Assembly: GCF_037860835.1 (NCBI RefSeq) | Contig: NZ_JBBEOG010000001.1 | Span: 62,001-126,000 of the forward strand | From: Aquipuribacter nitratireducens | Lineage (GTDB): Bacteria; Actinomycetota; Actinomycetes; Actinomycetales; JBBAYJ01 | Direction of reading: 5' to 3' | Length of the DNA: 64,000 nt | In this document: one piece after another, positions 4,744 to 24,388 of the stretch | Position numbering within the stretch: the stretch's first letter is position 1 | How the letters are laid out: every line of letters starts with the position of its first letter | The notes under the pieces: generated by a model | Told to the model about the DNA's origin: nothing | Seen by the model: only the letters and a program-made list of their open reading frames with translations | Database searches by the model: none | Translations under genes and position numbers: made by a program

Positions 4744-4877
4744 GGTGTGCTCCTCGGTGCGGTGCGGATCACCCGGTCGGTCGCGGTCGGTCCCGGCCCG
4801 GCTGACCCGTTCGGGCCAACGATCTCACGCGGTGTCATCGGTCGACGGCGGCGCGGACTTCAGTCGAGGGGCAGACG

Positions 4878-4927
4878 TGCCGTAGTAGGGGAGGCACAAT
4901 CCGTGAGACAGGGGCGTCGGACCCCTG
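4878..4927 (+). promoter_or_regulatory. Hairpin-containing leader of the first WSxGWD gene
   Basis: The 5' leader holds two small stems. GTGCC/GGCAC spans 4878-4898 with an 11-nt loop. CAGGGG (4909-4914) pairs with CCCCTG (4922-4927). The second stem ends 21 bp before the GTG start. It could influence translation, but nothing here matches a riboswitch class I know. Confidence 0.3.
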
Positions 4928-4948
4928 CCTGACCCAGGGACTTGCTTC

Positions 4949-6340
4949 GTGACTCCTCGCCAGCGCCGCACTCTGACCGCCTCCTTCGCGCTCCCGCTCA
5001 CCCTCGCCCTCACCGGTGGGCTCGCCGCCACCTCGTCCGCGGCCCCCGCCGACGACTGGTCGACCGAGCAGCCCGCCGACGCCCGCAAGGGCGCGACCGC
5101 AGCGGGCGCCGCTGCCCTCGAGGTCGCACCGGCGCCGGCCCGCGCCGGTGTCGCCGAGGCGGCCGCCGCGCCGACGGCGTCCGTCGCGATCTCGGACTGC
5201 TTCGTCCTCGACTCCTTCGGCACCACCGAGATCTCCGGCACCCTGACGGCGGACTCCGCCGCCGCGACGACGTTCAGCCTCACCGACAGCTTCGGCGACG
5301 TCTACGACGTCGACGTGCCGGCCGGCCAGACGTACGTCTTCAGCTACGTCGAGGACTGGGGTCCCACGACCGTGGAGGTCCGGGTCGGTACGACACTGCT
5401 CGCCTCGCGCAGTCGCGACGTGCCGGACTGCACGCCCACGACGGTGTCGAGCACGTACGGCAAGGACGAGATCATCCGCTGGAGCACCCGCGGCTACGGC
5501 GACTTCGTCAGCACCCTCACCGACGGCAACACCGAGCTCCTCGGCTACTGGGACCCCAACGTCGAGGCCGACATCGTGGTGCCGGTCGAGATCGACGGGC
5601 AGCGCGGCGACGAGTTCATGGTCTACGACAGCGTGAGCGGCCGGCAGACGTTCTACGGCTTCGACTTCGTCGACGGGCCGTTCGTCATCTCCGACCGGCA
5701 GTGGTCGAAGGGGTGGGACGTCGTCAAGCCGATCCAGCTCGACGGCGACGCCCTCAGCGAGCTCGTCGTCTACAACTCCGTGACGGGCCGGCAGGTGCTC
5801 GTCAACCTGTTCTCTAACGGCACCACCGGCACGTACTCCGACCGGCAGTGGTCGCGCGGCTGGGACGTCGTCGAGCCGATCCAGCTCGACGCCGACGCCC
5901 AGAGCGAGCTCGTCGTCTACAACTCCGTCACCGGCCGGCAGGTCCTCGTCAACCTCTTCTCCAACGGGAACACCGGCACGTACTCCGACCGGCAGTGGTC
6001 GCGCGGCTGGGACACCGTCGAGCCGATCCAGCTCGACAGCGACCGGCTGTCGGAGCTCGTCGTCTACAACTCCGTCACGGGCCGGCAGGTGCTCGTCAAC
6101 CTGTTCTCCAACGGCAACACCGGCACCTTCTCCGACCGGCAGTGGTCGAGGGGCTGGGACGTCGTGACGGCGGTCGAGTCCGACAACACCGCGCTGTCCG
6201 AGCTCGCCGTCTACAACTCGGTGACGGGCCGGCACGTGCTCGTCGACCTCAAGGCCGGCGGCGGCACCGGGACCTACCTCGACACCTTCTGGGGCCGCGG
6301 CTGGTCGGACGCCGTCCGGATCAACTTCGACGGCGACTGA
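4949..6340 (+). CDS. Secreted six-repeat WSxGWD protein, copy 1
   Basis: The function is unknown. This predicted exported protein of 463 residues has a Sec-type signal (about 1-33, cleavage near SSAA-PA) and a low-complexity Ala/Pro linker. A beta-rich domain (about 76-165) bears two cysteines, C84 and C161, which may form a disulfide. Six repeats of about 49 residues follow, from residue 173 to the end. The consensus of a unit is SELVVYNSVTGRQVLVNL, then SDRQWSRGWDVVEPIQLDGD. The LDGDxxSELVVYN part resembles the calcium loop of FG-GAP/VCBS repeats, so I infer a six-bladed propeller. The GTG start at 4949 gives a full signal peptide. It is the first of three tandem paralogues and diverges from the LCP gene. 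Confidence 0.85.
   Translation: MTPRQRRTLTASFALPLTLALTGGLAATSSAAPADDWSTEQPADARKGATAAGAAALEVAPAPARAGVAEAAAAPTASVAISDCFVLDSFGTTEISGTLTADSAAATTFSLTDSFGDVYDVDVPAGQTYVFSYVEDWGPTTVEVRVGTTLLASRSRDVPDCTPTTVSSTYGKDEIIRWSTRGYGDFVSTLTDGNTELLGYWDPNVEADIVVPVEIDGQRGDEFMVYDSVSGRQTFYGFDFVDGPFVISDRQWSKGWDVVKPIQLDGDALSELVVYNSVTGRQVLVNLFSNGTTGTYSDRQWSRGWDVVEPIQLDADAQSELVVYNSVTGRQVLVNLFSNGNTGTYSDRQWSRGWDTVEPIQLDSDRLSELVVYNSVTGRQVLVNLFSNGNTGTFSDRQWSRGWDVVTAVESDNTALSELAVYNSVTGRHVLVDLKAGGGTGTYLDTFWGRGWSDAVRINFDGD
5465..6337 (+). repeat. Six tandem WSxGWD units (147-bp period)
   Basis: The coding DNA repeats with an exact 147-bp period. The segment encoding DRQWS begins at 5693, 5840, 5987 and 6134. Units 3 to 5 are nearly identical, while the first and last are diverged. 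This looks like expansion by tandem duplication with caps kept at both ends. Confidence 0.85.
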
Positions 6341-6366
6341 GGTCCGTCCGGACCCAGCGCCACGGT

Positions 6367-6396
6367 GAGGGCCGGTCCCCGCAGGGACCGGCCCTC
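6367..6396 (+). terminator. Perfect 13-bp hairpin after copy 1
   Basis: GAGGGCCGGTCCC (6367-6379) pairs perfectly with GGGACCGGCCCTC (6384-6396) around a CGCA loop. It lies 27 bp after the stop of copy 1 and before the start of copy 2. There is no T-run, as with other putative terminators in this window. Confidence 0.75.
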
Positions 6397-6444
6397 GCCC
6401 GTGTTCTCATGTCCCCGCACGTCGTCCGTCCCCGAGGAGCTCCC

Positions 6445-7845
6445 ATGCGCTCGTCCCGTCCCCTCGTTGCGCTCGCTGCCGTGGCGGCAGCCGCTGTCGT
6501 CGGCGCCAGTGCGCCCGCAGGCGCGGCGGTCCCCGACGGCCCGAGCGGACAGAAGGGCTCCGGGGGTGACGTGTCAGGGCTCGAGTCGGGCCTCGAGGTA
6601 CGACCGGCTGAGGGCGCCGACGAGGCGGCCGCGAGCACGGCGCGCGCGGCGGCGGCCGCCTCGGCCACCGTGCGCATCTCCTCCTGCTTCGTCCTCGACT
6701 CGTGGGGGACGGTCGAGGTGAGCGGCGTGCTCGTCGCGGACTCGGCGAGCGCCACGACGTTCACGGTCGTCGACAGCTTCGGCTTCGAGGAGCCCGTCGA
6801 CGTCCCCGCCGGGGCAGCGGTCGAGTTCTCGTACCTCGAGGACGCCGGCCCAACGTCGGTCGAGGTGCGCGTCGGCGGGTCGACGATCGCCGGGTCCACG
6901 CGGGACGTGCCCGACTGCACGCCGACCACGATCGCTCCCACCGGTCGGGACGAGCTGATCCGCTGGGAGGGCGACGCGCTCGGTGAGTTCGTCGACGTAC
7001 TGGCGGACGGCAACACGGAGTTCCTCCGCGAACTGCGCCTCTCGTGGGACGGGCGGGACAGCTACGCCGCGGTGGCGGTCGAGGCCGACCGGACGGCCGG
7101 CGAGGAGCTGCTCCGCTACAACATCCGCACCGGGAACAAGCAAGTGATCGACCCGGTGGTCGGGGCCGATGGGGGGCTCGACCTCCAGTGGCTCGCCTTC
7201 GCGGACTGGTCCCCCGGGTGGTCGACCGCCCGCCCCGTCGAGCTCGACGGCACACCGGGGTCGGAGCTGGTGCTCTACAACGCGACCACGGGTCGTCAGG
7301 TGATCCTCGACTTCATCGAGGACGGCAGGGCGCTCACGGTGTCCGACCGGCAGTGGTCGAAGGGCTGGGACGTCGTCGAGCCGATCCAGCTCGACGCCGA
7401 CTCCCTCAGCGAGCTCGTCGTCTACAACTCCCTGACCGGTCGGCAGGTGCTCGTCAACCTGTTCCCGAACGGCACCACCGGCACGTACTCCGACCGGCAG
7501 TGGTCGCGCGGCTGGGACACGGTCGAGCCGATCGAGCTCGACGGCGACCGGCTCTCCGAGCTCATGGTCTACAACTCCACGACCGGCCGGCAGGTCCTCG
7601 TCAACCTCTTCGCCGACGGCAGCACCGGCACCTTCTCCGACCGGCAGTGGTCGAAGGGATGGGACGTCGTCACCGCCCTCGAGAGCGACACCACCGCCCT
7701 GTCCGAGCTCGCCCTCTACAACTCAGCGACCGGCAGACACGTCCTCATCGACCTCAAGGCCGGCGGCGGCACCGGCACCTACCTCGACACGTTCTGGGGT
7801 CGGGGCTGGTCCGACGCCATCCGGATCGACCTCGACGGGCGCTGA
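6445..7845 (+). CDS. Secreted six-repeat WSxGWD protein, copy 2
   Basis: The function is unknown. This is a 466-residue paralogue of the preceding gene. It has a signal peptide (about 1-28, ending PAGAA), an acidic linker, the same two-cysteine beta domain (SSCFVLDSWG to DVPDCTP), and six repeats. Repeats 1 and 2 are strongly diverged (EELLRYNIRTGNKQVIDPVV), whereas 3 to 6 match the consensus closely. I chose ATG 6445 because GAGGAG sits just upstream and a signal peptide follows at once. The open frame runs further upstream without any convincing start. The next paralogue begins 3 bp after its stop, so these two are co-transcribed. Confidence 0.85.
   Translation: MRSSRPLVALAAVAAAAVVGASAPAGAAVPDGPSGQKGSGGDVSGLESGLEVRPAEGADEAAASTARAAAAASATVRISSCFVLDSWGTVEVSGVLVADSASATTFTVVDSFGFEEPVDVPAGAAVEFSYLEDAGPTSVEVRVGGSTIAGSTRDVPDCTPTTIAPTGRDELIRWEGDALGEFVDVLADGNTEFLRELRLSWDGRDSYAAVAVEADRTAGEELLRYNIRTGNKQVIDPVVGADGGLDLQWLAFADWSPGWSTARPVELDGTPGSELVLYNATTGRQVILDFIEDGRALTVSDRQWSKGWDVVEPIQLDADSLSELVVYNSLTGRQVLVNLFPNGTTGTYSDRQWSRGWDTVEPIELDGDRLSELMVYNSTTGRQVLVNLFADGSTGTFSDRQWSKGWDVVTALESDTTALSELALYNSATGRHVLIDLKAGGGTGTYLDTFWGRGWSDAIRIDLDGR
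6949..7842 (+). repeat. Six tandem WSxGWD units of copy 2
   Basis: The repeat domain covers six units of about 49 codons. The four C-terminal units keep the SELxxYNxxTGRQVLVNL and SDRQWSxGWD cores. Unit 2 carries an insertion of several residues. Confidence 0.8.
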
Positions 7846-7848
7846 ACC

Positions 7849-9222
7849 GTGACGACGTGCCGCTTCGCCAGCCTCGTCCCCGCGGCGCTGGCCGCCGTCC
7901 TCGGCGCCGGCCTCGCCGCCCCTGCCACGGCGGCGACCACCCGCTGGGCCGGTGAGCCGTGGGAACCGGGTCGGCTCTCGGTGACTGCCGTTGCGGCGCC
8001 GACGCTCCCCTCGCTGCCCCCGGGCAGCGCGGCGGCTGCCGCCGCGCCCACGGCGTCGCTGACGGTGTCGCCGTGCTTCGTCCTCGACTCCTACGGCGCC
8101 GTGGAGGTCGTCGGCACGCTGGTCGCCGACGCCGCGGCCGACACGGCGTTCACCGTCGTCGACAGCTCGGGCAGTCGTCACCCCGTGACGGTGCCGGCGG
8201 GGCGCGCCGTCAGCATCCGCTGGGTCGAGGGCTGGGGCGAGGTCAGCGTGGAGGTCTATGCCGGGGACACGCAGCTCACGCGTGTCGAGCGCGACGTCCT
8301 CGACTGCGGGCCGCGCAGCGTGTCGTCCTTCGTCGACGGTGCCGACGAGCTGCTGCGGTGGGACGCCCGTGGCGTGGGCGACTTCGTCGAGGTGTTCACC
8401 AACGGGCACACCGCGCTGCTCGGCTTCTGGGACGCCGAGATCCCCGCCGACGTCGTCGTCCCCGTCGACGTCGACGGCCGGCCCGGCGACGAGCTCGTGG
8501 TGTACGACAGCCTGACGGGGCGGATGGTCGTCGTGGGCATCGACCCGTTCGACGGGCCGTTCGTCATCTCCGACCGGGCGTGGTCCCCGGGGTGGGACAC
8601 TGTCGTCCCGGTCGAGGTCGACGGCAGCCCCGGCTCCGAGCTGGTGGTCTACAACAGCGTGACCGGCCGTCAGGTGGTCGTGAACCTGTTCGCGGATGGT
8701 GGCACCGGCACCATCAGCGACCGGCAGTGGTCCCTCGGCTGGGACGTCGTCGAGCCGGTCCAGCTGGACGGCGACGCCCTGTCCGAGCTCGTCGTCTACA
8801 ACAGCGTCACCGGCCGTCAGGTGCTCGTGAACCTCTTCGGTGACGGCCGCACCGGCACGTACAGCGACCGCGCGTGGTCGCGCGGCTGGGACACCGTCGA
8901 GCCCGTCCAGCTCGACACGGACGGGCTGTCCGAGCTCGTCGTCTACAACAGCGTGAGCGGGCGCCAGGTGCTCGTGAACCTATTCCCCGACGGCTCGACG
9001 GGCACGTTCTCCGACCGGCAGTGGTCGAGGGGCTGGGACGTCGTGACCGCCGTCGAGTCCGACCGCACCCCGCTGTCGGAGCTCGCGGTCTACAGCTCGA
9101 CGACGGGCCGGCACGTGCTCGTCGACCTCAAGCCCGGCGGCGGCACCGGCACCTACCTCGACACCTTCTGGGGCCGGGGCTGGGCCGACGCGGTCGCCTT
9201 CGAGCTCGACGGCCGCCGCTGA
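7849..9222 (+). CDS. Secreted six-repeat WSxGWD protein, copy 3
   Basis: The function is unknown. This is the third tandem paralogue, 457 residues, starting with GTG 3 bp after the stop of copy 2. It has a signal peptide (about 1-29, ending PATAA) and the two-cysteine beta domain (VSPCFVLDSYG to VLDCGPR). Six repeats follow, beginning DELLRWDARGVGDFVEVF and ending with the cap unit GTGTYLDTFWGRGWADAVAF. That cap, with FWGRGW in place of QWSRGW, is shared by all three tandem copies and so marks the true end of the domain. Between 20 and 70 residues of low-complexity linker separate signal and domain in the three copies. No anchor or sorting signal is visible, so free secretion is likely. Confidence 0.85.
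   Translation: MTTCRFASLVPAALAAVLGAGLAAPATAATTRWAGEPWEPGRLSVTAVAAPTLPSLPPGSAAAAAAPTASLTVSPCFVLDSYGAVEVVGTLVADAAADTAFTVVDSSGSRHPVTVPAGRAVSIRWVEGWGEVSVEVYAGDTQLTRVERDVLDCGPRSVSSFVDGADELLRWDARGVGDFVEVFTNGHTALLGFWDAEIPADVVVPVDVDGRPGDELVVYDSLTGRMVVVGIDPFDGPFVISDRAWSPGWDTVVPVEVDGSPGSELVVYNSVTGRQVVVNLFADGGTGTISDRQWSLGWDVVEPVQLDGDALSELVVYNSVTGRQVLVNLFGDGRTGTYSDRAWSRGWDTVEPVQLDTDGLSELVVYNSVSGRQVLVNLFPDGSTGTFSDRQWSRGWDVVTAVESDRTPLSELAVYSSTTGRHVLVDLKPGGGTGTYLDTFWGRGWADAVAFELDGRR
8344..9219 (+). repeat. Six tandem WSxGWD units of copy 3
   Basis: Six units of about 49 codons. Unit 2 reads SDRAWSPGWDTVVPVEVDG and units 3 to 5 follow the consensus. Synonymous differences between units are more numerous than in copy 1, which suggests older duplications or conversion from different donors. 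Confidence 0.8.
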
Positions 9223-9237
9223 GGCCCGCCACGACTA

Positions 9238-9421
9238 CTGTGCCGCCGGGGTCATAGCGACGGAATCGCCGAATCCGGCGCTACAACCCCTGTGCCGCAG
9301 GGGTCGTGGCGGCGGTGGCGGCGAGGGCGGCGATGGCGGCCACCCGCGTCCACAACCTCTGTGCCGCAGAGGTTGTAGCGCGGAATCGGCCTGATCCCGG
9401 TCTACAACCCCTGCGGCACAG
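9238..9421. repeat. Nested palindromic repeats between convergent genes
   Basis: The 222-bp gap between the convergent repeat-protein and heparinase genes is filled by related dyads. ACAACCTCTG (9352-9361) pairs perfectly with CAGAGGTTGT (9367-9376). CTGTGCCGCAGAGGTTGTAG (9359-9378) is complementary at 19 of 20 positions to 9402-9421, across a 23-bp spacer. A third copy, CCCCTG/CAGGGG, lies at 9286-9302. Alternate pairings are mutually exclusive. The array may act as a bidirectional terminator or be a small REP-like element. Confidence 0.65.
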
Positions 9422-9444
9422 CCCTGGTAGGTGCGTGCGGGCGC

Positions 9445-11712
9445 TCAGCGCAGCGACGCCGTGAGGGTCATCGACCGCACCCGCGGCAGCGCCACGGTGA
9501 CGACCGTCAGCGCACGCCCGTCGGAGGAGGTCTCCGGCGCCGGCGCCTCGCTGATGACCGACCCGGCGGGCAGGCCCGAGAAGCGGAGCGTCGCGGTCTG
9601 ACCGGCCTTTCGGAGCACGACCTGACCCGAGCCCACCGACACGTCGGCGTCGGTGACCCAGCGCCACTGGAGGTTGACGGCGCTGTCGGCCCGGACCTCG
9701 TCGCGGATGTCGACACGGTCCGAGTAGTGGGTGACGGTCCGCTTCGCCAGGCGCGTGCCCGGGACGGCCTTCGTGAGGTCGACCCCGACCTGGGACGCCG
9801 TGAAGCCGCTGAAGGTCGCCCGCGCCGTGGTGGGCTGGTTCGCCCCGGCCCGCACGAGCGTCGAGTGCGCGGACACGCTGGGGTGCCAGTACGTCCACCG
9901 CTTCACCGAGTCGAAGTAGCCCGGCTGGGAGTAGCTGCCGAGGCCGGGGTCGACGGCCCAGTCGACGCCCTTGCGCTGCACGGACACCGAGCCGAGGTCG
10001 AGGTGGCCGTGGGACAGGCCGTTCCGCCCGCCCTTCACCGTCACGGTGCCCTCCGGGCGCTGGAGCACGGCGAGGCCGCTCGCCGGGTACAGGGACGAGC
10101 GCGGCGTGGCGACCGACCCGCCGTCGACCCACCACCACAGCAGGTACGGGTGCGGCTCCTGCGCGAACTTCCCCCGCGCCCACGCGGCGACGGTCGTGTT
10201 GCCCGTCGCCTTCGCGACCCACGCGGGCGCGAACGGGGCGACGTCCTGCGGCGCGGAGTCGCCGACCGGCACGACGGAGCCGTCCTTGTTCGCGCTGTTG
10301 AGGGCGTACGTCGCGAGCTTCCAGGGCGAGGGCAGCGTGACGGGGCCGGTGCCGTAGACGGCGTCGTAGGTGGCGTACAGCGCGGCGACCCCGCCGACGC
10401 CCGACGTCATGTAGTTCCAGTAGCCGGGGCCCTCGACCGACCCGCCGTCCTGCGCCAGGGCGCGGAGACCGGGGGCGACGCCGCCGAGCGTCGCGCGGGC
10501 GAACGCCGCGGACTGGGCGGGCTTGCCGCGGAGGAACACCGCGCCGGCGATGAAGTAGTTGCTGTTCTGGATGACCGGGATGTTCGTGCTGCCGGAGACG
10601 AAGCTGTCGCGGAACGCGTGCTCGCACGTCGCCGGTCCGAGCCAGCGGACGTACACCCGCTCCTCCGTCATCGGGTCGACCGTGGCCGTCCAGTTGTAGC
10701 CGGCGGCCATGGCGCCGAGCACACCGGCGGCGCGCAGCGTGTTGGTCTGCCGCTCCGGACCGGCAGCGGCGAGGGTGCGGACGTCCTTCTGCAGGGCCGT
10801 GCGCGACGCGCCGTCCCCGCCGCCGAGCCACGCGTAGCCGAGGCGCGTCGTGCGGGTGCCGAAGGACTGCCAGGCGCCGTCGACCGCCTGGGGCGTGCCG
10901 CGCTCGCGGGCCGCGCTCTGGAGCATCTGCCGGTGCGTCGTCGCGAGGGGCTCCCGCGTCACGCGCTGCTTCGCGGCGCTCACCATGGCGCTCGTGGTCG
11001 CGACGACGGGACGGTCCGTCGGCACGCTCGGGCGCCACACCGACGTCGCGTACGGCAGCGCGCAGCCGCCCGCGAAGCCGGTCCAGCCGCTCGCGGCGGG
11101 GACGCTGCCGCTGCGCGTCCGCACCGAGGACAGGTAGCGGGAGGAGAACAGGGTCGGCGTCGCCACGGCCTTGCCGGCGGCGGCGAGGTGGGCGGCGGTG
11201 TCGCCCGCGAGCCGCGTGGAGAACGACTCGAGCCGGGTGCGCTGCGCGGCGTAGGCCGACGACGACATCCGGCCGGTCGCCCGGTCGTCGAGCGCGGTGC
11301 GGGCGAGGGTGTGCTGCTCCGTGCGGTAGGCGGCGATCGTCTGCAGACGACCGGCGACGTCGCGCACGGTGCGGGCGCGGCGCGTCTCGCTGTCGATGCG
11401 GCGCTTCGCCGTGTCGTACGTCGACCAGCTCGTGACCGCGGAGATGAGCGGACCGGACGCGGTGAGGGAGGCGTAGCCGCGCGCGTTCGCGTCCTGCATC
11501 GCGACGACCTGCGAGCGGGGCAGGCCACCGAGCCGCGTCCGCGCCACCTTGTAGTCCTCGCCGGCGGCCTTGTACCTCGTCCACAGCGCCGCCTTCGCGT
11601 CGGCGAGGGCCGAGGCGGCGTGCCCGGGGGCGGGCAGCAGCAGCAGCGCGAGGAGGAGCGCGGTCAGACCGGCGAGGAGGGCGGCGGGCGTGGCAGAGCG
11701 GGAGCGGGTCAC
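9445..11712 (-). CDS. Secreted heparinase II/III-like polysaccharide lyase
   Basis: This is a predicted exported enzyme of 755 residues that would cleave an acidic polysaccharide by beta-elimination. It has a signal peptide (about 1-32, ending PGHAA) and a helical N-terminal half with several YxxxxHxxxxALDD-like stretches that suggests an alpha/alpha toroid. The heparinase II/III motif GLSHGHLDLGSVSVQ and WAVDPGLGSYS sit in the C-terminal beta-sandwich region. Family members use such His and Tyr residues for catalysis and metal binding. It lies 60 bp downstream of the transpeptidase gene on the same strand. Given the polymer locus around it, it may trim or recycle the cell's own surface glycan. 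The exact substrate is not readable. Confidence 0.75.
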   Translation of the reverse strand: MTRSRSATPAALLAGLTALLLALLLLPAPGHAASALADAKAALWTRYKAAGEDYKVARTRLGGLPRSQVVAMQDANARGYASLTASGPLISAVTSWSTYDTAKRRIDSETRRARTVRDVAGRLQTIAAYRTEQHTLARTALDDRATGRMSSSAYAAQRTRLESFSTRLAGDTAAHLAAAGKAVATPTLFSSRYLSSVRTRSGSVPAASGWTGFAGGCALPYATSVWRPSVPTDRPVVATTSAMVSAAKQRVTREPLATTHRQMLQSAARERGTPQAVDGAWQSFGTRTTRLGYAWLGGGDGASRTALQKDVRTLAAAGPERQTNTLRAAGVLGAMAAGYNWTATVDPMTEERVYVRWLGPATCEHAFRDSFVSGSTNIPVIQNSNYFIAGAVFLRGKPAQSAAFARATLGGVAPGLRALAQDGGSVEGPGYWNYMTSGVGGVAALYATYDAVYGTGPVTLPSPWKLATYALNSANKDGSVVPVGDSAPQDVAPFAPAWVAKATGNTTVAAWARGKFAQEPHPYLLWWWVDGGSVATPRSSLYPASGLAVLQRPEGTVTVKGGRNGLSHGHLDLGSVSVQRKGVDWAVDPGLGSYSQPGYFDSVKRWTYWHPSVSAHSTLVRAGANQPTTARATFSGFTASQVGVDLTKAVPGTRLAKRTVTHYSDRVDIRDEVRADSAVNLQWRWVTDADVSVGSGQVVLRKAGQTATLRFSGLPAGSVISEAPAPETSSDGRALTVVTVALPRVRSMTLTASLR

Positions 11713-11772
11713 CGAGAAGTGGTCGGCACGCGCCCGACCGGTCTTGACGCCGACGCCCCGGACAGGACCCGG

Positions 11773-13083
11773 TCAGCTCCCGTCGACGTCGAGCGCGGTG
11801 AGCGACCAGCCCCTCGACCAGGTGGTGTCGCTGAGGGTCACCGTCGTGCCGTCGGCGCGCAGGTCGAGCAGGACGCGTCGGCCGGTGGTGGGGTTGTAGG
11901 TGAGGAGCTCGCTGCCGGTGGTGCCGTCGGTCTCGACGGGGGTGAGGGTCCAGGCCTTCGACCAGGTGGTGTCGGTGAGGGTGCGGGTGGTGCCGTCGGC
12001 GCGGAGGTCGAGCAGGGCCCGTCGGCCGGTGGTGGGGTTGTAGGTGAGGAGCTCGCTGCCGGTGGTGCCGTCGGTCTCGACGGGGGTGAGGTGCCAGGCC
12101 TTCGACCAGGTGGTGTCGGTGAGGGTGCGGGTGGTGCCGTCGGCGCGGAGGTCGAGGAGGACGCGTCGGCCGGTGGTGGGGTTGTAGGTGAGGAGCTCGC
12201 TGCCGGTGGTGCCGTCGGTCTCGACGGGGGTGAGGGTCCAGGCCTTCGACCAGGTGGTGTCGGTGAGGGTGCGGGTGCTGCCGTCGGCGCGGAGGTCGAG
12301 CAGGGCCCGCCGGCCGGTGGTGGGGTCGTACGCCACGAGCTCGTCGGTGCGCGTCGCGCCGCCGGGCCGGTCGTCGAGCCACGACTGCGGGCCCATGACT
12401 ATCTGCGGTGTCGCGGCGGGGTCGAGCCAGCGGAGCAGCGTGTGCATCTGGGTCTGGCTCACCGAGACGCAACCGAGCGTCGCGTCCCGTCCGTTGACGT
12501 GGAGGAAGATCGCCGAGCCGCGGCCCGCGACCGGGTCCGGGCGGTTGAAGTCGATGACCGCCGCGTAGTTGTACTGCGGGTCGTACGTCGCGAGCCGCTC
12601 CGAGGCCTCGGTCCGGAAGCCGCCCTGGGAGCCCAGCCGCATGTCGTTGTAGTACGGCGACTCGCTGCCGCCGACCCAGTAGTGGTCCATGCCGACCTGG
12701 ACGTACGGCATGCGGGTGCCGGGGTCGGCGAGCCGGCCGAAGGTCTCGGTGATGCTGTAGCTGCCGGCGGGCGTCGTCCGGTTCCCCACGACCCGCTCCT
12801 CGCCGATCATGAACCCGTTCGGTCCCAGACGCGCCTGCCACGGCCCGTGGACCCGCTCCCAGCCGGTGGCGCGCCGCTCGTAGGCGGTGAGCGTCGCGTA
12901 GGACGTCGTCCACGACGGGGCGGTCACGACGATCACCTGGCTCGTGGCGGCCGGCAGCCGCGACTCGAAGCGCTCGATGCCGGGCACCGTGACGGTCCCC
13001 GCGCTCGCTGGCGCGACGGCGCCCAGCAGGACGACGGCGAGGGTGAGCAGCACGGTCACGACAGGGCGGGCGGTACGGGACAC
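11773..13083 (-). CDS. L,D-transpeptidase fused to four WSxGWD-type repeats
   Basis: This 436-residue exported protein has a signal peptide (1-28, ending PASAG) and a YkuD-superfamily domain (about 35-230). The catalytic motif is FLHVNGRDATLGCVSVS, with H195 and C205. L,D-transpeptidases form 3-3 peptidoglycan crosslinks or attach proteins to peptidoglycan. The C-terminal part (247-436) is four 48-residue repeats of the type SELLTYNPTTGRRVLLDL followed by DTTWSKAW. These are clearly related to the repeats of the neighbouring secreted proteins. I chose GTG 13083 because GAGGAG lies 9 bp upstream and the signal peptide follows. The fusion links the repeat family to the cell wall. No ORF longer than the repeat array follows before the heparinase gene. 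Confidence 0.85.
   Translation of the reverse strand: MSRTARPVVTVLLTLAVVLLGAVAPASAGTVTVPGIERFESRLPAATSQVIVVTAPSWTTSYATLTAYERRATGWERVHGPWQARLGPNGFMIGEERVVGNRTTPAGSYSITETFGRLADPGTRMPYVQVGMDHYWVGGSESPYYNDMRLGSQGGFRTEASERLATYDPQYNYAAVIDFNRPDPVAGRGSAIFLHVNGRDATLGCVSVSQTQMHTLLRWLDPAATPQIVMGPQSWLDDRPGGATRTDELVAYDPTTGRRALLDLRADGSTRTLTDTTWSKAWTLTPVETDGTTGSELLTYNPTTGRRVLLDLRADGTTRTLTDTTWSKAWHLTPVETDGTTGSELLTYNPTTGRRALLDLRADGTTRTLTDTTWSKAWTLTPVETDGTTGSELLTYNPTTGRRVLLDLRADGTTVTLSDTTWSRGWSLTALDVDGS
11776..12345 (-). repeat. Four 144-bp direct repeats in the transpeptidase gene
   Basis: An exact 144-bp period is visible, with equivalent sites at 11827, 11971, 12115 and 12259. The central units differ at only a few positions, including Val/Ala in TGRRVLL or TGRRALL. 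Such near-identity in DNA implies recent amplification or ongoing recombination. The copy number may be wrong in short-read assemblies. Confidence 0.85.
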
Positions 13084-13222
13084 AGCGGTCTCCTCGTCGA
13101 CGGCGTCACCGATGTCATCGGCAGGGTGCACCGTCGAGCCAAGCGTCACGCCCGTTCCGCCACTGCGGACGCGACTATGGTCGGTCGACCGGGCGGTCGA
13201 TCCCCCGGGGAGGAGGTTCGAC

Positions 13223-14467
13223 GTGCGGGTGACCTGGACCTCCGTCGACGAGCGGACGCTGCACCTGGAGTTCCGCCCCGACGCCGAGGACGCGCTGGTC
13301 GCCCGACGTGGACCGGACGTGCGGCTCATGACGACGAGCGCGAACATCCGGCTGCCGGTCCCGGCCGACGACCTGCACCCCGACCTCCTCGCGCTGGCGG
13401 CGTACGCCGTGGTGTGGCCGTGGACCCGCTCGCGCCTCGTCGTCGACCGCCCCGTGAGCGACGCCCTCGCGGAGGCGATGGCCCTCGACGGCGTCGCGAT
13501 CACCCCGACCGGGGGCGAGGCCCGCCGGCCGGGATCACGGGTCTCCCTCGCGTACTCCGGCGGCACGGACTCGATCGCGGCCTCGGTCCTGCTCCCAGAG
13601 GACACCGTGTACGTCCACCTGCGCCGGCAGAAGCACCCCCGGACCGTCGACCGCATGACGCACGTCAAGGGCGGCGTCCTGGAGCGGCTCGTGAGCGACG
13701 CGGGCCGGCGTGGCGTCGAGACGACGGTCGTGCGGACCGACCTGGAGTACGTCTGCCTGCCGTTCGCCACGTTCCCCGTCTGGTGGGCGGTGCTGGTCGG
13801 CTCCATCCTCACCGCGGACGCGTACGACGCCGGGGCGGTGGCGACCGGGACGGTGCTCGAGGCGCGGTACCTCGGCAGCGGGATCCGATTCATCGACCAC
13901 GCCCACCCCTCGACCTTCCACCGCCTCTTCGAGGCCGTGGGCCTACCGTTCCTGCGCCCGACCGCAGCGCTGACGGAAGTCGGCACGACTCTCGTGGCGC
14001 GGCACTCGCCGCTCGCCGACCTCGCGCGGTCGTGCCTCCTCGGCTCGTACGAGCGGCCGTGCCTCCGCTGCGACAAGTGCCTGCGCAAGGAGATGACGAC
14101 GGCGGCGATCGACGGCAGGCGCCTGTCGCCGGCAGTGCTCGACGCCATGCGGAGCCACCCGGCCATGTTCGCCAAGGTCCTCGCCGAGCCCCCGCTCTAC
14201 ATGCAGGACATGGTCGAGTACGCGCTCGCGCGGGTGGACGTGTCGGGGACACCGCTCGAGGCAGCGGCCGAGCGCCTCCGGCCCTCGGCGGAGTCGACGC
14301 GCTGGGTGGAGGGGTACTACGCCCCGGCCCTCGACCACGAGGTGCCGCCGCGCTGGCGCACCGACGTCGAGCGGCGCCTCGGCGGTCTGGTCCGGCGGAT
14401 GACGGCGCAGGAGGAGGCCGTCGTCGAGACGTGGGACGCCGCCACGAGGTCGGAGGTCCCGGCGTGA
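13223..14467 (+). CDS. QueC-like PP-loop ATP pyrophosphatase of unknown role
   Basis: This 414-residue protein carries the N-type ATP pyrophosphatase loop SLAYSGGTDSIAAS (SGGTDS at 112-117), which activates substrates by adenylation. Near residues 271-286 four cysteines are spaced C-x8-C-x2-C-x2-C, like the zinc site of QueC. The first 100 residues and the middle part do not look like queuosine enzymes, and no other deazapurine gene is nearby. Start GTG 13223 is supported by AGGAGG at 13211-13216. It overlaps the next small gene by 4 bp and diverges from the transpeptidase gene. I infer a tailoring enzyme that activates a carboxylate or amide in the surface-polymer pathway, but this is a guess. 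Confidence 0.7.
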   Translation: MRVTWTSVDERTLHLEFRPDAEDALVARRGPDVRLMTTSANIRLPVPADDLHPDLLALAAYAVVWPWTRSRLVVDRPVSDALAEAMALDGVAITPTGGEARRPGSRVSLAYSGGTDSIAASVLLPEDTVYVHLRRQKHPRTVDRMTHVKGGVLERLVSDAGRRGVETTVVRTDLEYVCLPFATFPVWWAVLVGSILTADAYDAGAVATGTVLEARYLGSGIRFIDHAHPSTFHRLFEAVGLPFLRPTAALTEVGTTLVARHSPLADLARSCLLGSYERPCLRCDKCLRKEMTTAAIDGRRLSPAVLDAMRSHPAMFAKVLAEPPLYMQDMVEYALARVDVSGTPLEAAAERLRPSAESTRWVEGYYAPALDHEVPPRWRTDVERRLGGLVRRMTAQEEAVVETWDAATRSEVPA

Positions 14468-14787
14468 CGCGGCTGCGGGTGCGCCTCGCCGATCGCGTGA
14501 GGTCGCGTCTGGGGGTCACGGCCCTACGTCGCGAGAACGCGGACCTCACGCGGCGGGTGCGCGCGCTCGAGGCGGCCCTCGTGCGCGCGACGAGCGGCCC
14601 GGCGTCCGACGTCGAGCTCCTGTCCCTGCGCACGGAGCTGCGCGCGCTCGTGACGGCGCACCGCGACACGAGCCGGATGACGGTCGAGGCCGCGAAGGCC
14701 ATCGAGCTCGTGCTCGCCGACCTCGTCGAGCTGCGGCGTGACCTCGACGCGCAGACCCCGGCGTCACCGGAGCACCACGACGAGTGA
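14464..14787 (+). CDS. Small coiled-coil protein coupled to the PP-loop gene
   Basis: I do not recognise this 107-residue protein. It starts with GTG overlapping the TGA of the PP-loop gene by 4 bp, which implies translational coupling and a shared role. It is highly charged, with heptad-like leucines in RRENADLTRRVRALEAALV and again in LLSLRTELRALV and LVLADLVELRRDL. This suggests two helices of a coiled coil. It has no signal peptide or membrane segment. It may be an accessory or oligomerisation subunit for the ATPase. Confidence 0.65.
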   Translation: MTRLRVRLADRVRSRLGVTALRRENADLTRRVRALEAALVRATSGPASDVELLSLRTELRALVTAHRDTSRMTVEAAKAIELVLADLVELRRDLDAQTPASPEHHDE

Positions 14788-14864
14788 TCGGTCACGGACA
14801 CCCGCCGTCATAACGGTCCTGCAACGAGTCAGTCACGATCTCGACGCAGGTGCCATGAGGATCC

Positions 14865-14948
14865 CGCAGGTCATAGCGTCTGGTCCGAGCGTACGTCGAG
14901 GGCGTATCGACGCGTCCCGCGCTCCCGTGTCAAGGGGGATCCAGCCCG
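14865..14948 (+). promoter_or_regulatory. Duplicated leader upstream of WSxGWD copy 4
   Basis: This leader matches that of the next paralogue (16155-16236). Both contain CGCAGGTCATAGC, then a conserved ACGTCGAGG, then an identical 28-bp block (14912-14939 here) that includes the ribosome-binding AAGGGGG at 14932-14938. Identity is higher than in the coding regions. CATAGC could be a -10 element, but I cannot define the promoter. Confidence 0.55.
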
Positions 14949-16016
14949 ATGCGTCATGCCCGCCTACTGCCCGTCGTCGCCACCGCGGCCTGCGCAGCCA
15001 TCGTCACCACCGGCCTGGCCGTGCCCGCGAGCGCGGACCGCGTGCCGGCCGCCGACTTCACATCCGAGGTCGTCGTCTACGACGCCGACACCGGCCGCCA
15101 GGTCACGATCGACCTGCGGACCGCCACGACCACCGGCACCCTCGCGGACCGGCGCTGGTCGGCGGGCTGGGACCACGTCGTCCCGGTGGACTACACCCAG
15201 TACGCCGCTGGCAACCCGGCGACGCTCGTCTACAACAGCACGACCGGGCGCTACGCAGTCGTCGACCACTACGACGACGGCAGCACCGTCACCCTCGCCC
15301 AGGGCCAGTGGTCGCGCGGCTGGGACGTCATCACGACGATCCCGGCGAACAGCCAGGAGCCTGGCCGCGTCGACGAGGTCATGCTCGTCGACAGCGAAAC
15401 CGGTCGCGTCGTCGTCCTCGAGACCTTCGGCCTCGATGGGGGCGCCGGGTTCCGCACCGTCGCGGACCAGTCGAGCACCGCCCCGGTCGGCACCGACACG
15501 GTGCTCGCCTCCGAGGCGTTCTTCCGGGCGCCCGGCGACGACGTCTTCCGGGAGGCCGCGCTCGTCTTCTACGACAGCCGCACCGGCGAGCGGTCCCTCG
15601 GCTTCGTCTCGAGCAGCTACGCGAACACGCTCGTGTCGGTGGTCGTCGAGGACACGCTGCCGGCGTGGTCGGCGGGCTGGGACGTGGTGAGCCGGGTGGA
15701 GGTGGACGGCACGGCGGGGGACGAGGTGCTGTTCTACAACGCGAGGACGGGGCGCTCGATCCTCGCGGACCTTCTCGACGCGACCTACCGCTACCGGGTG
15801 ATCTCGCAGCGGCCGTGGTCGGCGGGCTGGGACGTCACGGTCGTCGAGGCCGACGGCAGCCTCGGCAGCGAGGTGCTGCTGTACAACCCGGAGACCGGGC
15901 GGCAGGTGACGGTCGACCTCAAGCGGGACGGTTCGACCGGCACGTACGCGGACCGGCAGTGGTCGCGTGGCTGGGACTCCCTCGTCGCGATCGAAACGGA
16001 GTTCTTCGCCGACTGA
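14949..16016 (+). CDS. Secreted WSxGWD protein without the two-cysteine domain, copy 4
   Basis: The function is unknown. This 355-residue exported protein has a signal peptide (about 1-31, ending PASA) followed directly by six repeats of 45-60 residues. The two-cysteine domain of copies 1 to 3 is absent. Repeats keep the YNxxTGR and WSxGWD cores (SEVVVYDADTGRQVTIDL, RRWSAGWDHVV). Units 3 and 4 carry longer loops and lose the tryptophan core in places. It forms a second subfamily with the following gene. AAGGGGG 10 bp upstream supports ATG 14949. A long hairpin follows the stop, so it is transcribed on its own. Confidence 0.8.
   Translation: MRHARLLPVVATAACAAIVTTGLAVPASADRVPAADFTSEVVVYDADTGRQVTIDLRTATTTGTLADRRWSAGWDHVVPVDYTQYAAGNPATLVYNSTTGRYAVVDHYDDGSTVTLAQGQWSRGWDVITTIPANSQEPGRVDEVMLVDSETGRVVVLETFGLDGGAGFRTVADQSSTAPVGTDTVLASEAFFRAPGDDVFREAALVFYDSRTGERSLGFVSSSYANTLVSVVVEDTLPAWSAGWDVVSRVEVDGTAGDEVLFYNARTGRSILADLLDATYRYRVISQRPWSAGWDVTVVEADGSLGSEVLLYNPETGRQVTVDLKRDGSTGTYADRQWSRGWDSLVAIETEFFAD
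15063..16013 (+). repeat. Six degenerate WSxGWD units of copy 4
   Basis: Six units are recognisable by SEVVVYDADTG, ATLVYNSTTG, EVMLVDSETG, ALVFYDSRTG, EVLFYNARTG and EVLLYNPETG. The last unit, GTYADRQWSRGWDS, is closest to the copies 1 to 3 consensus. Confidence 0.75.
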
Positions 16017-16032
16017 TCCACGCACCGTTCGC

Positions 16033-16066
16033 ACGGCCCGCCACGACCTCGGTCGTGGCGGGCCGT
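16033..16066 (+). terminator. Perfect 16-bp hairpin after copy 4
   Basis: ACGGCCCGCCACGACC (16033-16048) is the exact complement of 16051-16066, leaving a 2-base spacer (effective 4-base loop). It starts 17 bp after the stop codon. The arm sequence is shared with the hairpin after copy 5. Confidence 0.8.
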
Positions 16067-16154
16067 CGCCCTGTGAGCACGCTCGGCGAGTGGCTGTCAT
16101 CACGGATCGGCCACGGTCCCATCACGGATCACGCACCGCTCCCCACGGTGTTCT

Positions 16155-16236
16155 CGCAGGTCATAGCCTTCGCGGTGAGCGCACGTCGAGGACGCACCGA
16201 AGCGTCCCGCGCTCCCGTGTCAAGGGGGAACCACCC
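16155..16236 (+). promoter_or_regulatory. Duplicated leader upstream of WSxGWD copy 5
   Basis: This is the second copy of the leader described at 14865-14948. It carries CGCAGGTCATAGC at 16155-16167 and the identical 28-bp block at 16202-16229. AAGGGGG lies 8 bp before the ATG. Two direct copies of ATCACGGATC occur just upstream, around 16098-16131. Confidence 0.55.
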
Positions 16237-17301
16237 ATGAGCTCTGCCCGTCGTCTGCTGCCCGCGGTCGCCACCGCGGCCTGTGCAGCAGTCGTCACCG
16301 CCGGCCTCGCCGGCCCGGCCACCGCCAGCCACACCACCGGCTACTACGACTACACGTCCGAGGTCGTCGTCTATGACGCCGACTCGGGCCGGCAGGTCAC
16401 GATCGACCTGACGAGCGACGCCAGCACCAGCACGCTCGCCGACAGGCGCTGGTCGACGGGGTGGGACCACGTCGTCGCGCTCGACCACGGCACGGCGACC
16501 GGCCGGGCAACTCTGCTCTACAACAGCACGTCGGGCCGGTACGCGGTCGTCAACCACCTCCCCGACGGGCGCACCGGCACCCTGGCCCAGGGGCAGTGGT
16601 CGAGGGGCTGGGACGAGATCATCGCTGTCTTCGCCAATCGGTACACCGTCGGAACGGACGAGGTGCTCCTGCTCGACTCCGAGACGGGTCGCGTCGTTGC
16701 CCTGGACACCAGCAGGCTGTGGGACGGACGCGGGTTCCGGACCCTGTCCGACGACGTGGCTGCGCCTAGGGGGACGGACGTCCTCCGGGGTCAGGTCGGC
16801 AGCTCCGACACGTCCCTGGCGACAGCGGGGCTCCTCTACTACGACTCGGTGAACGGCTGGTACCACAGCTCCCACACCGATGATCGACGCTTCCCGGTCG
16901 ATGGCACCATCGACGTGCGTGAACGCTCCGCGTTCGTCAGCAACCGGAAGTGGTCGGCGGGTTGGACGTACATCGAAACAGTGGAGTCCGACGGCAGCTA
17001 CGGCCCGGAGACCCTCTTCTACAACCCCGCCACCGGCCGGGCGGTGGTACGCGACAGGTCGGGCATCGGCATCGGGTCCCAGCAGCCCAAGGAGGCGAAC
17101 TGGGGCTCGGGCTGGAAGGTGACCGTCGTCGAGATCGACAACTTCACCGACACCGAAGTCATCCTCTACAACCCCGACACAGGCCGGACGCTCATCGCGG
17201 AGATCGAGCCCGACGCCACCCTCCGGGTCCTCTCCGAGCGCACCTGGTCGACCGGCTGGGACGCCATCACCGCCATCGACACGGAGTTCGCCTGGTCCTG
17301 A
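16237..17301 (+). CDS. Secreted WSxGWD protein, copy 5
   Basis: The function is unknown. This is a 354-residue paralogue of the preceding gene, with a signal peptide (about 1-31, ending PATAS) and six repeats. The first two repeats resemble copy 4 most (SEVVVYDADSGRQVTIDL, QGQWSRGWDEII), while units 3 to 5 have diverged strongly (NRKWSAGWTYIETV, EANWGSGWKVTVVEI). I chose ATG 16237 because the AAGGGGG of the conserved leader precedes it. The open frame extends upstream only by chance. Gene plus leader plus terminator look like one duplicated transcription unit. Confidence 0.8.
   Translation: MSSARRLLPAVATAACAAVVTAGLAGPATASHTTGYYDYTSEVVVYDADSGRQVTIDLTSDASTSTLADRRWSTGWDHVVALDHGTATGRATLLYNSTSGRYAVVNHLPDGRTGTLAQGQWSRGWDEIIAVFANRYTVGTDEVLLLDSETGRVVALDTSRLWDGRGFRTLSDDVAAPRGTDVLRGQVGSSDTSLATAGLLYYDSVNGWYHSSHTDDRRFPVDGTIDVRERSAFVSNRKWSAGWTYIETVESDGSYGPETLFYNPATGRAVVRDRSGIGIGSQQPKEANWGSGWKVTVVEIDNFTDTEVILYNPDTGRTLIAEIEPDATLRVLSERTWSTGWDAITAIDTEFAWS
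16357..17298 (+). repeat. Six degenerate WSxGWD units of copy 5
   Basis: Units begin at SEVVVYDADSG, TLLYNSTSG, EVLLLDSETG, LLYYDSVNG, ETLFYNPATG and EVILYNPDTG. Spacing varies from about 48 to 58 residues. Confidence 0.7.
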
Positions 17302-17317
17302 CCGACGACGCCCGCCG

Positions 17318-17350
17318 GACGGCCCGCCACGCCCGCCGTGGCGGGCCGTC
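17318..17350 (+). terminator. Perfect 14-bp hairpin after copy 5
   Basis: GACGGCCCGCCACG (17318-17331) pairs exactly with CGTGGCGGGCCGTC (17337-17350) around a 5-nt loop. The convergent VWA gene ends at 17378, so it may serve both strands. Confidence 0.8.
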
Positions 17351-17377
17351 GCCGTCCCGGTGACCGGCGGACGTGCC

Positions 17378-19435
17378 TCAGCGCCGCCCGCGCGCCCGCA
17401 CGTAGCTCGCGACGACCGCCCCGCCGAGCCGGTCCGGGTCCGCGGACAGCACCCGACCCCCGTTGCGCCGCGCGATGGCGTCGACGAACCGGACGAGCCC
17501 CGGGTCGTCGCCGAGCATCACCGTGTCGATCGGCACCCGCATGCGCGTGAGCGCGTCGACCTCCCGCACGGTCGCCTCCACCGTCTCCGGCAGCGGCGGC
17601 CAGCTGAACACCGCCTCGCTCTGCACCCCGCCGGTGCCGTCGGCCCACGTCTCGAGGTGCGCCGTCGGCTCCCCGTCGGTGACGACGAGGACGACGGGCG
17701 TCGCGTCCGGGTGCCGGCCGACGTGCCGTCGGGCGAGCGACAGCGCGTGCGCGAGGTTGGTGCCCTGCACGTACGCGGGTTCGACGTGGGCGAGCTCGGT
17801 CGTCGTCATCTCACGGGCGTAGCGGTCGAAGCCGATGACCTGCAGGGCGTCGCGCGCGAAGCGGGTCTCGACGAGGTGACCGAGCGCGAGGGCGGTCCGC
17901 TTCATCGGCGCCCACCGGCCCTCGCTCACCATGGAGAACGACAGGTCGACGCACAGCGCGACGGCCGCGCGGGTGCGGTCCTCGGTCTCGACGACCGCCA
18001 TGTCGACGGGCGCGAGCCGGACGGCGCCGCCGCGGGCGACGCCGTCGCGAGCGACGTCCTCACCCGGTGCCTCCGACGCCGTCCGCAGGACGGCGTTCGT
18101 CACGGTCCGGACGACGTCGAGGGGCTGCTCGTCGCCGAAGCGCCACTCCCGCCACGCCCCCGTCGGCTCCCCGGCGCTGCCGGCGCGGGTGTCCTCGTGC
18201 TCCCCGGCCGCCCCGCCCGTCAACCGGTCCGCGACCGCGCGCAGTGCGCTCTGCCCGAGCCGGCGCATCGCCTTCGGCGACAGCCGCGCCTCGTGCGCGG
18301 GACCGGTCAGCCAGCCCTGGTCGCGCAGCGCCCGTTCGAGCTCGCGGAGCGCCTGCACGTCCTCCGCCGCCGTGCGCCCCAGGGCGCGCTCGACCTGGTC
18401 GACGTCGACGTCGTCGAGGGTCGCACCGGGGTGGCGCTGGCCCAGGGAGTCGAGGAGGTCGTCGAGGTCGGCGATCTCCGCGAGCGCGCCCGCCGCCTCG
18501 CCGTACCCGGACTCCCCCTGCCCGCGCAGCGGAGTGCGCGGCCCGGCGAGGTCCGGGCGCAGCTCGGCGAGCCGGTTCCCGAGCGAGGCCATCGCCTCGG
18601 CGAGACCCGGGTCGCGACCGAGCGCCTGCTCCATGAGGGAGGACAGCTCGGCCCGCTGCTGCGGCGACAGCTGGTCGAGCAGCGCCTGCGACGCCGCGGC
18701 CCGGCGGGCGAGCTCGTCGACGAGCTCCTCGGTGTTCCGCGGGTTCCCGGGCACGAGGTCGCCGTGCTCGGCCATGAAGCGCTCGAACTGCTCGGTCGTG
18801 TCCTCCCCTCGCGCATGGGCGGCCAGCAGGTCGTCGAGGTCGCGGAGCATCGCCCGCAGCGCCTCCTGCGCCGCGGCGTCCCCACCGCCCTCCGCCATCT
18901 GCCGCAGCGCCTGCGACATGCCGCGGAACTGGTGGTCGAGGACCTCCTCGCGCAGCTCGTCGAGCACCTGCCGGTACAGCTGCTCGGCCTCCGCCGACGC
19001 CCACTCGTAGTCGGACAGCTCGGCGACGGCCCGGGAGGTGGACCGGGGGAGGGAGTCGAGCCGCGCCTCGGCGAAGCGGGCGTCGTCGTCGTCCCGTGCC
19101 TGGAGCTCGGCGCGCTCGGCGGCGAGCGCCTGGTCGAGGCGCGCCTGGGCGCGGGTGAGCGCCCCCTCCGCGTTGCTGCGCCGCGCGAGCTCCGCCCGCC
19201 GACGCGCGGCCTCTGCCCTCAGCCGGTCGAGGCCGGCCCGCTGCTCGCGGCCGTCGCGGAACCCGTCGCGCAGGAGGCTGCGCAGCGCCTCCGCGGCGCC
19301 CTCGCCCTGCATGATCCGCTCGCCGAGCTCGTCGACGGCCGCCCGCACGTCGACTGGGGGCGCGAGCGGGTCCGCCCCGCCGCGCCACGCGCCGTAGCGG
19401 TACCCGCGCCCGGGTCGTGGGTCACGCGCCGGCAC
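17378..19435 (-). CDS. VWA-domain protein partnered with a MoxR-type ATPase
   Basis: This 685-residue cytoplasmic protein probably acts with the adjacent AAA+ ATPase as a chaperone-like metal-insertion or complex-remodelling pair. A charged helical N-terminal 430 residues, rich in DDLLD, ERALR and QALRQM stretches, precedes a C-terminal von Willebrand A domain. The domain has the MIDAS motif CVDLSFSM (DxSxS), GTNLAHAL and VTDGEPTAH. The start is taken as GTG 19435, which lies 6 bp after the stop of the ATPase gene. A much longer open frame upstream is a shadow of the ATPase gene. The MoxR-VWA pairing is common in actinomycetes, but the client protein is unknown. Confidence 0.85.
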   Translation of the reverse strand: MPARDPRPGRGYRYGAWRGGADPLAPPVDVRAAVDELGERIMQGEGAAEALRSLLRDGFRDGREQRAGLDRLRAEAARRRAELARRSNAEGALTRAQARLDQALAAERAELQARDDDDARFAEARLDSLPRSTSRAVAELSDYEWASAEAEQLYRQVLDELREEVLDHQFRGMSQALRQMAEGGGDAAAQEALRAMLRDLDDLLAAHARGEDTTEQFERFMAEHGDLVPGNPRNTEELVDELARRAAASQALLDQLSPQQRAELSSLMEQALGRDPGLAEAMASLGNRLAELRPDLAGPRTPLRGQGESGYGEAAGALAEIADLDDLLDSLGQRHPGATLDDVDVDQVERALGRTAAEDVQALRELERALRDQGWLTGPAHEARLSPKAMRRLGQSALRAVADRLTGGAAGEHEDTRAGSAGEPTGAWREWRFGDEQPLDVVRTVTNAVLRTASEAPGEDVARDGVARGGAVRLAPVDMAVVETEDRTRAAVALCVDLSFSMVSEGRWAPMKRTALALGHLVETRFARDALQVIGFDRYAREMTTTELAHVEPAYVQGTNLAHALSLARRHVGRHPDATPVVLVVTDGEPTAHLETWADGTGGVQSEAVFSWPPLPETVEATVREVDALTRMRVPIDTVMLGDDPGLVRFVDAIARRNGGRVLSADPDRLGGAVVASYVRARGRR

Positions 19436-20919: not shown

Positions 20920-20973
20920 GGCCTCACGGTAGGCATGCCGCGCACGACGGCGCGCGGGGTGGAGGATGTCGCC

Positions 20974-22185: not shown

Positions 22186-22188
22186 GCC

Positions 22189-23436: not shown

Positions 23437-23448
23437 GCGTCCCGGCGT

Positions 23449-24318: not shown

Positions 24319-24388
24319 CCGCCCGATCCTGGCCGACGTGGGCGTCTCGGCGCAGCGGTTCGTGCCCGCGCGTGCCTCGCCGACAGGG

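Follow-up and report, generated by a model that had tools for sequence, protein, structure and literature searches.

A predicted secreted YkuD-family enzyme of Aquipuribacter nitratireducens ends in a repeat family also carried by amidase and SpoIID-domain proteins

The gene studied here lies in a stretch of 64,000 nucleotides from Aquipuribacter nitratireducens, called the window throughout, and its features are collected in Table 1. The window's genome is denoted G000, and G001 and G002 are two other species of the genus. The limits of the gene in the initial annotation of this DNA proved correct, with the gene on the minus strand; the plus strand of the same interval is also open, yet it holds no gene.

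Table 1. Features of the enzyme gene and of its surroundings (positions in the window)
Feature	Position	Strand	Remarks
Family 2 glycosyltransferase, cut by window edge	1-1137	-	
Glycosyltransferase-like gene, below Pfam cut-offs	1142-2374	-	
LCP (LytR-CpsA-Psr) glycopolymer transferase, left flank of block	3697..4743	-	
Block absent at this place from G001 and G002	4744..17377	.	Gene order comparison
Secreted protein, N-terminal beta domain and repeats (five and a degenerate first)	4949..6340	+	
Secreted protein, layout as 4949..6340	6445..7845	+	
Secreted protein, layout as 4949..6340	7849..9222	+	
Heparinase II/III-like secreted protein	9445..11712	-	60 bases behind enzyme, same strand
YkuD-family enzyme with C-terminal repeats	11773..13083	-	436 aa, GTG at 13083, stop at 11773
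Repeat unit 4, residues 391-436	11776..11913	-	Sequence, unit model
Repeat unit 3, residues 343-390	11914..12057	-	Sequence, unit model
Repeat unit 2, residues 295-342	12058..12201	-	Sequence, unit model
Repeat unit 1, residues 247-294	12202..12345	-	Sequence, unit model
YkuD domain, residues 97-226	12406..12795	-	Pfam; region alignable with relatives is about residues 35-234
Presumed active site, H195 to C205	12469..12501	-	Sequence and alignment with relatives
Sec-type signal peptide, about residues 1-28, ends ASA	13000..13083	-	By eye from sequence
DUF6395 open frame, divergent from enzyme	12944..14467	+	Gene start probably inside, beyond 13083
Secreted protein of six repeat units only	14949..16016	+	
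Secreted protein of six repeat units only	16237..17301	+	
VWA-type protein (by eye), right flank of block	17378..19348	-	93.5% identical in G001

The enzyme belongs to a block of 12.6 kb that also contains the heparinase-like gene, the DUF6395 gene and all five secreted repeat proteins. In G001 the relatives of the flanking LCP gene (77% identical) and of the VWA-type gene are direct neighbours, 124 bases apart, and beyond this pair relatives of the window genes 19534-24967 follow in the same order; in G002 the two flanks (71 and 77%) likewise adjoin, 180 bases apart. The block is thus either a gain in this species or a loss common to both others. Its GC content is 72.4%, against 75.0% for the rest of the window, and its ends showed neither a flanking repeat beyond chance nor a tRNA. 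No match to the heparinase-like protein was found in G001 or G002, and a conserved pair of this gene with the enzyme was rejected on that ground; the two genes are perhaps read as one transcript. The DUF6395 protein, whose frame resembles an ATP-pyrophosphatase (SGGTDS motif, by eye), also had no match in either species, in a search without positive control. In the three tandem proteins at 4949-9222 a beta domain with two conserved cysteines precedes the repeats, and residues 76-156 of the first were modelled with fair confidence.

As evidenced by a match to PF03734 above the curated cut-off (28.7 bits versus 23.4, E 2.3e-6), the enzyme contains the YkuD-type catalytic domain that had been annotated, although it is the weakest of the three YkuD matches in G000. 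Both residues named for the active site, H195 and C205, were found in place, each in a column whose conservation is at least 90% in an alignment of 40 sequences. The cysteine motif is TLGC, and the aligned relatives have T-x-G-C as well, mostly TAGC. Searched against solved structures, the enzyme profile had no match at E 0.01. The protein is probably a secreted, active enzyme of YkuD fold that acts on peptidoglycan stem peptides; cross-linking and trimming are indistinguishable from its sequence.

Residues 247-436 form four repeat units of 48, 48, 48 and 46 amino acids, in agreement with the initial annotation. Their designation as WSxGWD repeats was right as to the family and wrong as to the letters, since none of the four units has this motif (three read WSKAW, one WSRGWS). 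With the tail alone as query we obtained 24 matches in G000, and its best E-values against the five neighbouring repeat proteins, 8e-40 to 6e-22, are far beyond chance, so that the annotated kinship with the secreted proteins at 4949-9222 and 14949-17301 holds. The nearest units (61-63% identical) belong to a nuclease-like protein on another contig, and none of the window neighbours is closer. Units 1-3 share 90-97% of their DNA sequence; their duplication is therefore of recent date, which leaves the count of four copies insecure. Silent and non-silent codon changes are both present between the units and decide nothing. Long exact DNA repeats occur only in the nuclease-like protein and in the enzyme (277 and 120 bases, respectively), those of the other arrays reaching at most 43.

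Repeats of this family stand at five separate places in G000: in the window, on contig C11, at the end of C9 and start of C12, on C1 near 665 kb and on C3 near 234 kb. On C1 an Amidase_2 protein adjoins a SpoIID protein, both with C-terminal repeats, and on C3 a second Amidase_2 protein ends in the same way. The C11 gene (locus L024, 7717-9054) codes for the nuclease-like protein, which is secreted, has five units and by eye resembles the HNH type, an identity that neither Pfam nor NCBIfam confirmed. Three of its units are 97-99% identical in DNA, and the gene also holds the exact repeat of 277 bases. One gene of the family is cut at the end of C9 (L025, 10856-11533), and C12 opens with the final repeats of a gene of this kind (L028, 1-237). 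This suggests that the assembler broke within a repeat array, and the two contigs may join at the broken gene.

Six units were counted in 13 of 15 repeat proteins, a figure that combines a 49-position unit model, itself built from the very units it counts, with weak partial matches and inspection by eye, and that leaves the split C9/C12 gene aside. The two SpoIID proteins and the two repeat-only proteins have six model matches each. Five proteins with an N-terminal domain have five units and a degenerate first one, the sixth unit here relying on inspection and on partial matches of low score (4 to 9 bits). In the four amidases five units are followed by a last one that ends after positions 26-29, and a strand resembling the missing one precedes the first unit. 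Inspection showed this strand in each of the four, the model (at -3 to 4 bits) in three of them; the arrays thus seem to be permuted by one strand, and a shift of this kind closes many beta-propellers. Only the nuclease-like protein with five units and the enzyme with four deviate, and these numbers possibly reflect a recent contraction or a collapse in assembly. Note that the stand-alone arrays and the nuclease-like protein also carry the repeats, and the module is thus not exclusive to wall enzymes.

The initial annotation had further proposed to look for a linkage of the fusion with LCP and glycosyltransferase genes. As the relatives of the LCP and VWA-type genes adjoin each other in G001 and G002, the LCP gene flanking the block is older than the block and not a partner that arrived with it, and its position tells little about the function of the block. 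On C1 a second LCP gene of G000 is separated by 3.4 kb from the amidase that is paired with the SpoIID protein. The relative of this LCP gene in G001 (89% identical) closes a contig on which relatives of the same neighbouring genes (72-90%) precede it, and the next genes up to the amidase have relatives (88, 93 and 50%) at the end of another G001 contig. The neighbourhood of LCP gene and amidase-SpoIID pair is probably common to both species across the contig break. In G000 an LCP gene is found within 10 kb at two of the five repeat places, compared to 0.13 expected (P 0.008), where the calculation treats the places as random and one partial LCP match is counted.

The fold of the repeats was approached from several sides. 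Both AlphaFold models are poor (mean pLDDT 46.9 and 50.2). Of 1570 Foldseek matches to the model of 4949-6340 the best 50 were mostly beta-propellers, yet no TM-score exceeded 0.35 and the rmsd was at least 11, and on account of these scores the list was dismissed as evidence for the fold. A profile of seven arrays weakly matched designed six- and seven-bladed (Pizza) propellers in the PDB (E 0.0014), while for a profile of nine arrays designed TIM barrels ranked above propellers; repetitive composition may explain both results. With a single array as query no propeller lectin was found. The longest named match of the repeats is the PA5033 family (NCBIfam NF052506), at 23.5 to 53.2 bits against a cut-off of 100 and at 25 bits for the enzyme. 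For one window protein a tryptophanase model outscores it and another has no PA5033 match, and plainly wrong Pfam models lie above their cut-offs for the nuclease-like protein and one C9 protein, so that such weak matches to the repeats are not to be trusted. Pfam models for FG-GAP and VCBS repeats did not match the enzyme, the five window repeat proteins or the two amidases, the SpoIID protein and the nuclease-like protein of G000. A unit number near six in 13 of 15 proteins and the apparent one-strand permutation in the four amidases speak for end-to-end closure, the four units of the enzyme and the poor models against it. The repeats may form a closed six-bladed beta-propeller, the fold that we consider most likely. 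The ligand is most likely a wall or surface glycan of the organism, to which the repeats would target the enzyme.

A comparison within the genus shows related enzymes with other modules. G001 has two amidases and a SpoIID protein with the repeats, and its one YkuD match is a gene without them. In G002, an assembly of about 550 contigs, the repeat profile had no match. Two related amidases of this species (53 and 44% identical over the enzyme part) end in DUF4214 instead, and so does the SpoIID protein adjoining one of them; the sole YkuD match comes with a B_lectin domain. The pair with DUF4214 on contig C34 (L206, 1963-5663) stands beside a glycosyltransferase and an exporter pair composed of a Wzt-type ATPase and an ABC-2 permease, and the pairs of G000 and G001 lie among sugar-nucleotide and glycosyltransferase genes; here the neighbours were assigned with Pfam in G002 and by eye in G000 and G001. 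Since corresponding or related enzymes carry the repeats in one case and DUF4214 or B_lectin in the other, and the amidase-SpoIID pairs keep a neighbourhood of the same kind, the tail appears exchangeable. The bulb-type lectin domain of the YkuD enzyme from G002 (contig C149; L043, 1-1368) is N-terminal, and the protein also resembles lectin-like bacteriocins of the putidacin L1 type, below the cut-off.

In the surveys made, the fusion was encountered in G000 only. In a survey of the order, 62 of 396 genomes matched the enzyme, and both parts were joined in one intact gene only in G000, G001 being matched by the repeats alone; with at most four candidates scored per genome here, and at most eight in the class survey, matches may be missing. 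One genome, G169, gave a match that runs into the repeat part (query 40-341, with two stops inside) and was judged a chance extension. In the survey of the class, with 394 genomes, the repeat profile matched G000 and, weakly, one other, and G001 was evidently not drawn, as it is not among the matches. The weak match, in a genome of 9.4 Mb (L088, G669:C1:7180829-7181386), consists of five near-identical units of 44 residues, which we read as distant kin of the repeats. No case was confirmed by a pattern scan with the repeat alignment that covered 84,980 species with one genome each, and from which records of G000 itself are possibly excluded.

A scan with an enzyme alignment was evaluated for the best 80 of 542 relatives; the nearest among them is from Kineosporia (48%), and none of the 80 has the repeats. 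A YkuD match was obtained for 31 of the 40 members of the relative set. Of 39 relatives from the order analyzed with Pfam (loci taken from the survey matches, some from one genome, with L038, a masked stretch, left out), five contain LGFP repeats (L044 and L066-L069) and one, the enzyme of G002, B_lectin. A tree of 30 rows unites the LGFP enzymes L066-L069 in one clade (98/92) and does not place the window enzyme, in which PF08310 (LGFP) had no match. In the open-licence literature we found no paper on a fusion of this kind; the repeats have no searchable name. Found in one of 396 genomes of the order and absent from G001 and G002, this combination of YkuD domain and repeats is not conserved and looks sporadic and confined to a species-specific block, an outcome that the initial annotation had itself named as speaking against its reading.

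We consider it somewhat more probable than the contrary that the gene encodes a secreted YkuD enzyme for stem peptides, held at the cell's own surface by a glycan-binding propeller that is common to several wall enzymes. This reading builds on direct observations: the enzyme domain and its active-site residues, the repeats and their other fusions, their presence in a second species and the modules found in a third. The exported enzyme would act on peptidoglycan stem peptides, by 3-3 cross-linking or by trimming, and its C-terminal repeats would retain it at the surface. Units of about 49 residues, about six in most of the proteins, would close into a propeller that binds wall or surface glycan. 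G000 would employ this module on several secreted, wall-acting proteins, namely two amidases, a SpoIID-domain protein and the enzyme, and would also export it behind an N-terminal beta domain or by itself. Enzyme activity, propeller closure, glycan binding and targeting are the steps that we infer. Two Amidase_2 proteins and a SpoIID protein with the repeats, in G000 as well as in G001, support the proposed tie of the family to peptidoglycan. The idea that the repeats target the enzyme to the glycan of this locus is plausible as far as targeting is concerned, but with repeats at five places in the genome the target would not be the glycan of this locus alone.

Other explanations have to be weighed against this one. 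The YkuD domain might be a carboxypeptidase or a protein-releasing hydrolase instead of a transpeptidase, with the repeats still positioning the enzyme, and we regard this as rather unlikely without dismissing it. The usual motif of the family is SHGC, and the TLGC of the enzyme lacks its histidine; as T-x-G-C is also seen in the aligned relatives, however, the motif does not set the enzyme apart. DpaA, a hydrolytic precedent, is itself a YkuD protein. It is described as detaching Braun lipoprotein (PMC8263019), and Csd6 of H. pylori is reported to be an L,D-carboxypeptidase (PMC4599014). The enzyme could also covalently attach the neighbouring repeat proteins to peptidoglycan, in the way that E. 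coli enzymes link Braun lipoprotein, with the repeats as mutual recognition surfaces, which would account for the common arrival of the enzyme and five secreted repeat proteins in one block and was one of the functions initially proposed. We know of no such protein attachment in the subfamily of the enzyme. For L,D-transpeptidases as such a precedent is described in Lpp and OutB, which are linked via a C-terminal lysine (PMC12274547), but the last 20 residues are free of lysine in all five window repeat proteins, two of which contain a single lysine overall. Anchoring of this type is consequently very improbable.

The two remaining alternatives concern the tail. It could be devoid of a specific role, the product of recent, accidental domain shuffling in a repeat-rich genome: the fusion occurs in one of 396 genomes, inside a block missing from two sister species, and its only four units, the first three of them 90-97% identical in DNA, have their nearest kin on another contig. 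Nevertheless, family enzymes of other lineages are joined to other modules, and two species have the repeats on amidases and on a SpoIID protein, which suggests selection in favour of tails of this sort, and we hold such an accident to be unlikely. Alternatively, the ligand might be protein or metal instead of glycan, or the repeats might build a lattice at the surface. Beta-propellers often bind proteins, FG-GAP repeats hold calcium, as the DG-type loops of the present units could, and the secreted copies that consist of repeats only could assemble with each other. The B_lectin and LGFP modules of related enzymes point to sugar or wall as the ligand instead, which leaves this option a minority view with us, though one to be taken seriously.

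A broader reading, speculative and in our view unlikely, goes beyond the glycan-bound wall enzyme. In it each species of the genus would place one module, matched to its own surface glycan, on its peptidoglycan remodelling enzymes (six-unit repeats in two species, DUF4214 in the third) and would swap it across the whole set of enzymes together with the polymer. The repeats would then represent an undescribed glycan-binding propeller, and its ligand would be the polymer made by the genes near the amidase-SpoIID pair. The use of one module on several wall enzymes and its replacement on corresponding enzymes of a related species looks like a wider habit, of more interest than the single gene. Wall enzymes must be held in place, and what is known of the modules responsible derives largely from a small number of models; in G000 at least three kinds of protein that act on peptidoglycan terminate in units of a small, uncurated repeat family. 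If such modules bind the surface polymer of their own species, they would provide a new tag for binding to the wall and would connect surface polysaccharide with wall remodelling in actinobacteria.

Several known systems resemble parts of this arrangement. Propeller lectins of the AAL2/PVL type are built of four-stranded repeats closed end to end with a shift of one strand, and AAL2 from Agrocybe aegerita is described as a GlcNAc-binding propeller with seven blades (PMC4483166); these blades have about 56 residues, compared to about 49 in the units described here, and no sequence match to them was found. A homology model of PA5033, whose family is the longest named match of the repeats yet always falls below the cut-off, was reportedly built on a lectin of Agrocybe aegerita (PMC8516228), and PA5033 mutants of P. 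aeruginosa are listed with a lower resistance to some antibiotics in biofilms (PMC3634840). The YkuD enzymes with LGFP (L044, L066-L069) share with the window enzyme a repeat module that is presumed to bind the wall: LGFP has been proposed as a wall-anchoring repeat (PMC3314691) and is stated to interact with peptidoglycan (PMC12113857). It is a different repeat, however, N-terminal to the enzyme in L066-L069, and the clade of these four excludes the window enzyme; L044 has LGFP without a YkuD match at 0.001, its enzyme part being assigned by similarity to the window protein. In the B_lectin protein of G002, from the same genus, a YkuD enzyme is likewise combined with a presumed sugar-binding module, although the lectin is N-terminal, repeats are absent and the enzyme is only 32% identical. 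The Amidase_2 and SpoIID proteins of G000 and G001 differ in their catalytic domains, their six units and, for the amidases, the apparent permutation by one strand, but they carry the repeat family of the window, also at the C-terminus, and they also act on peptidoglycan.
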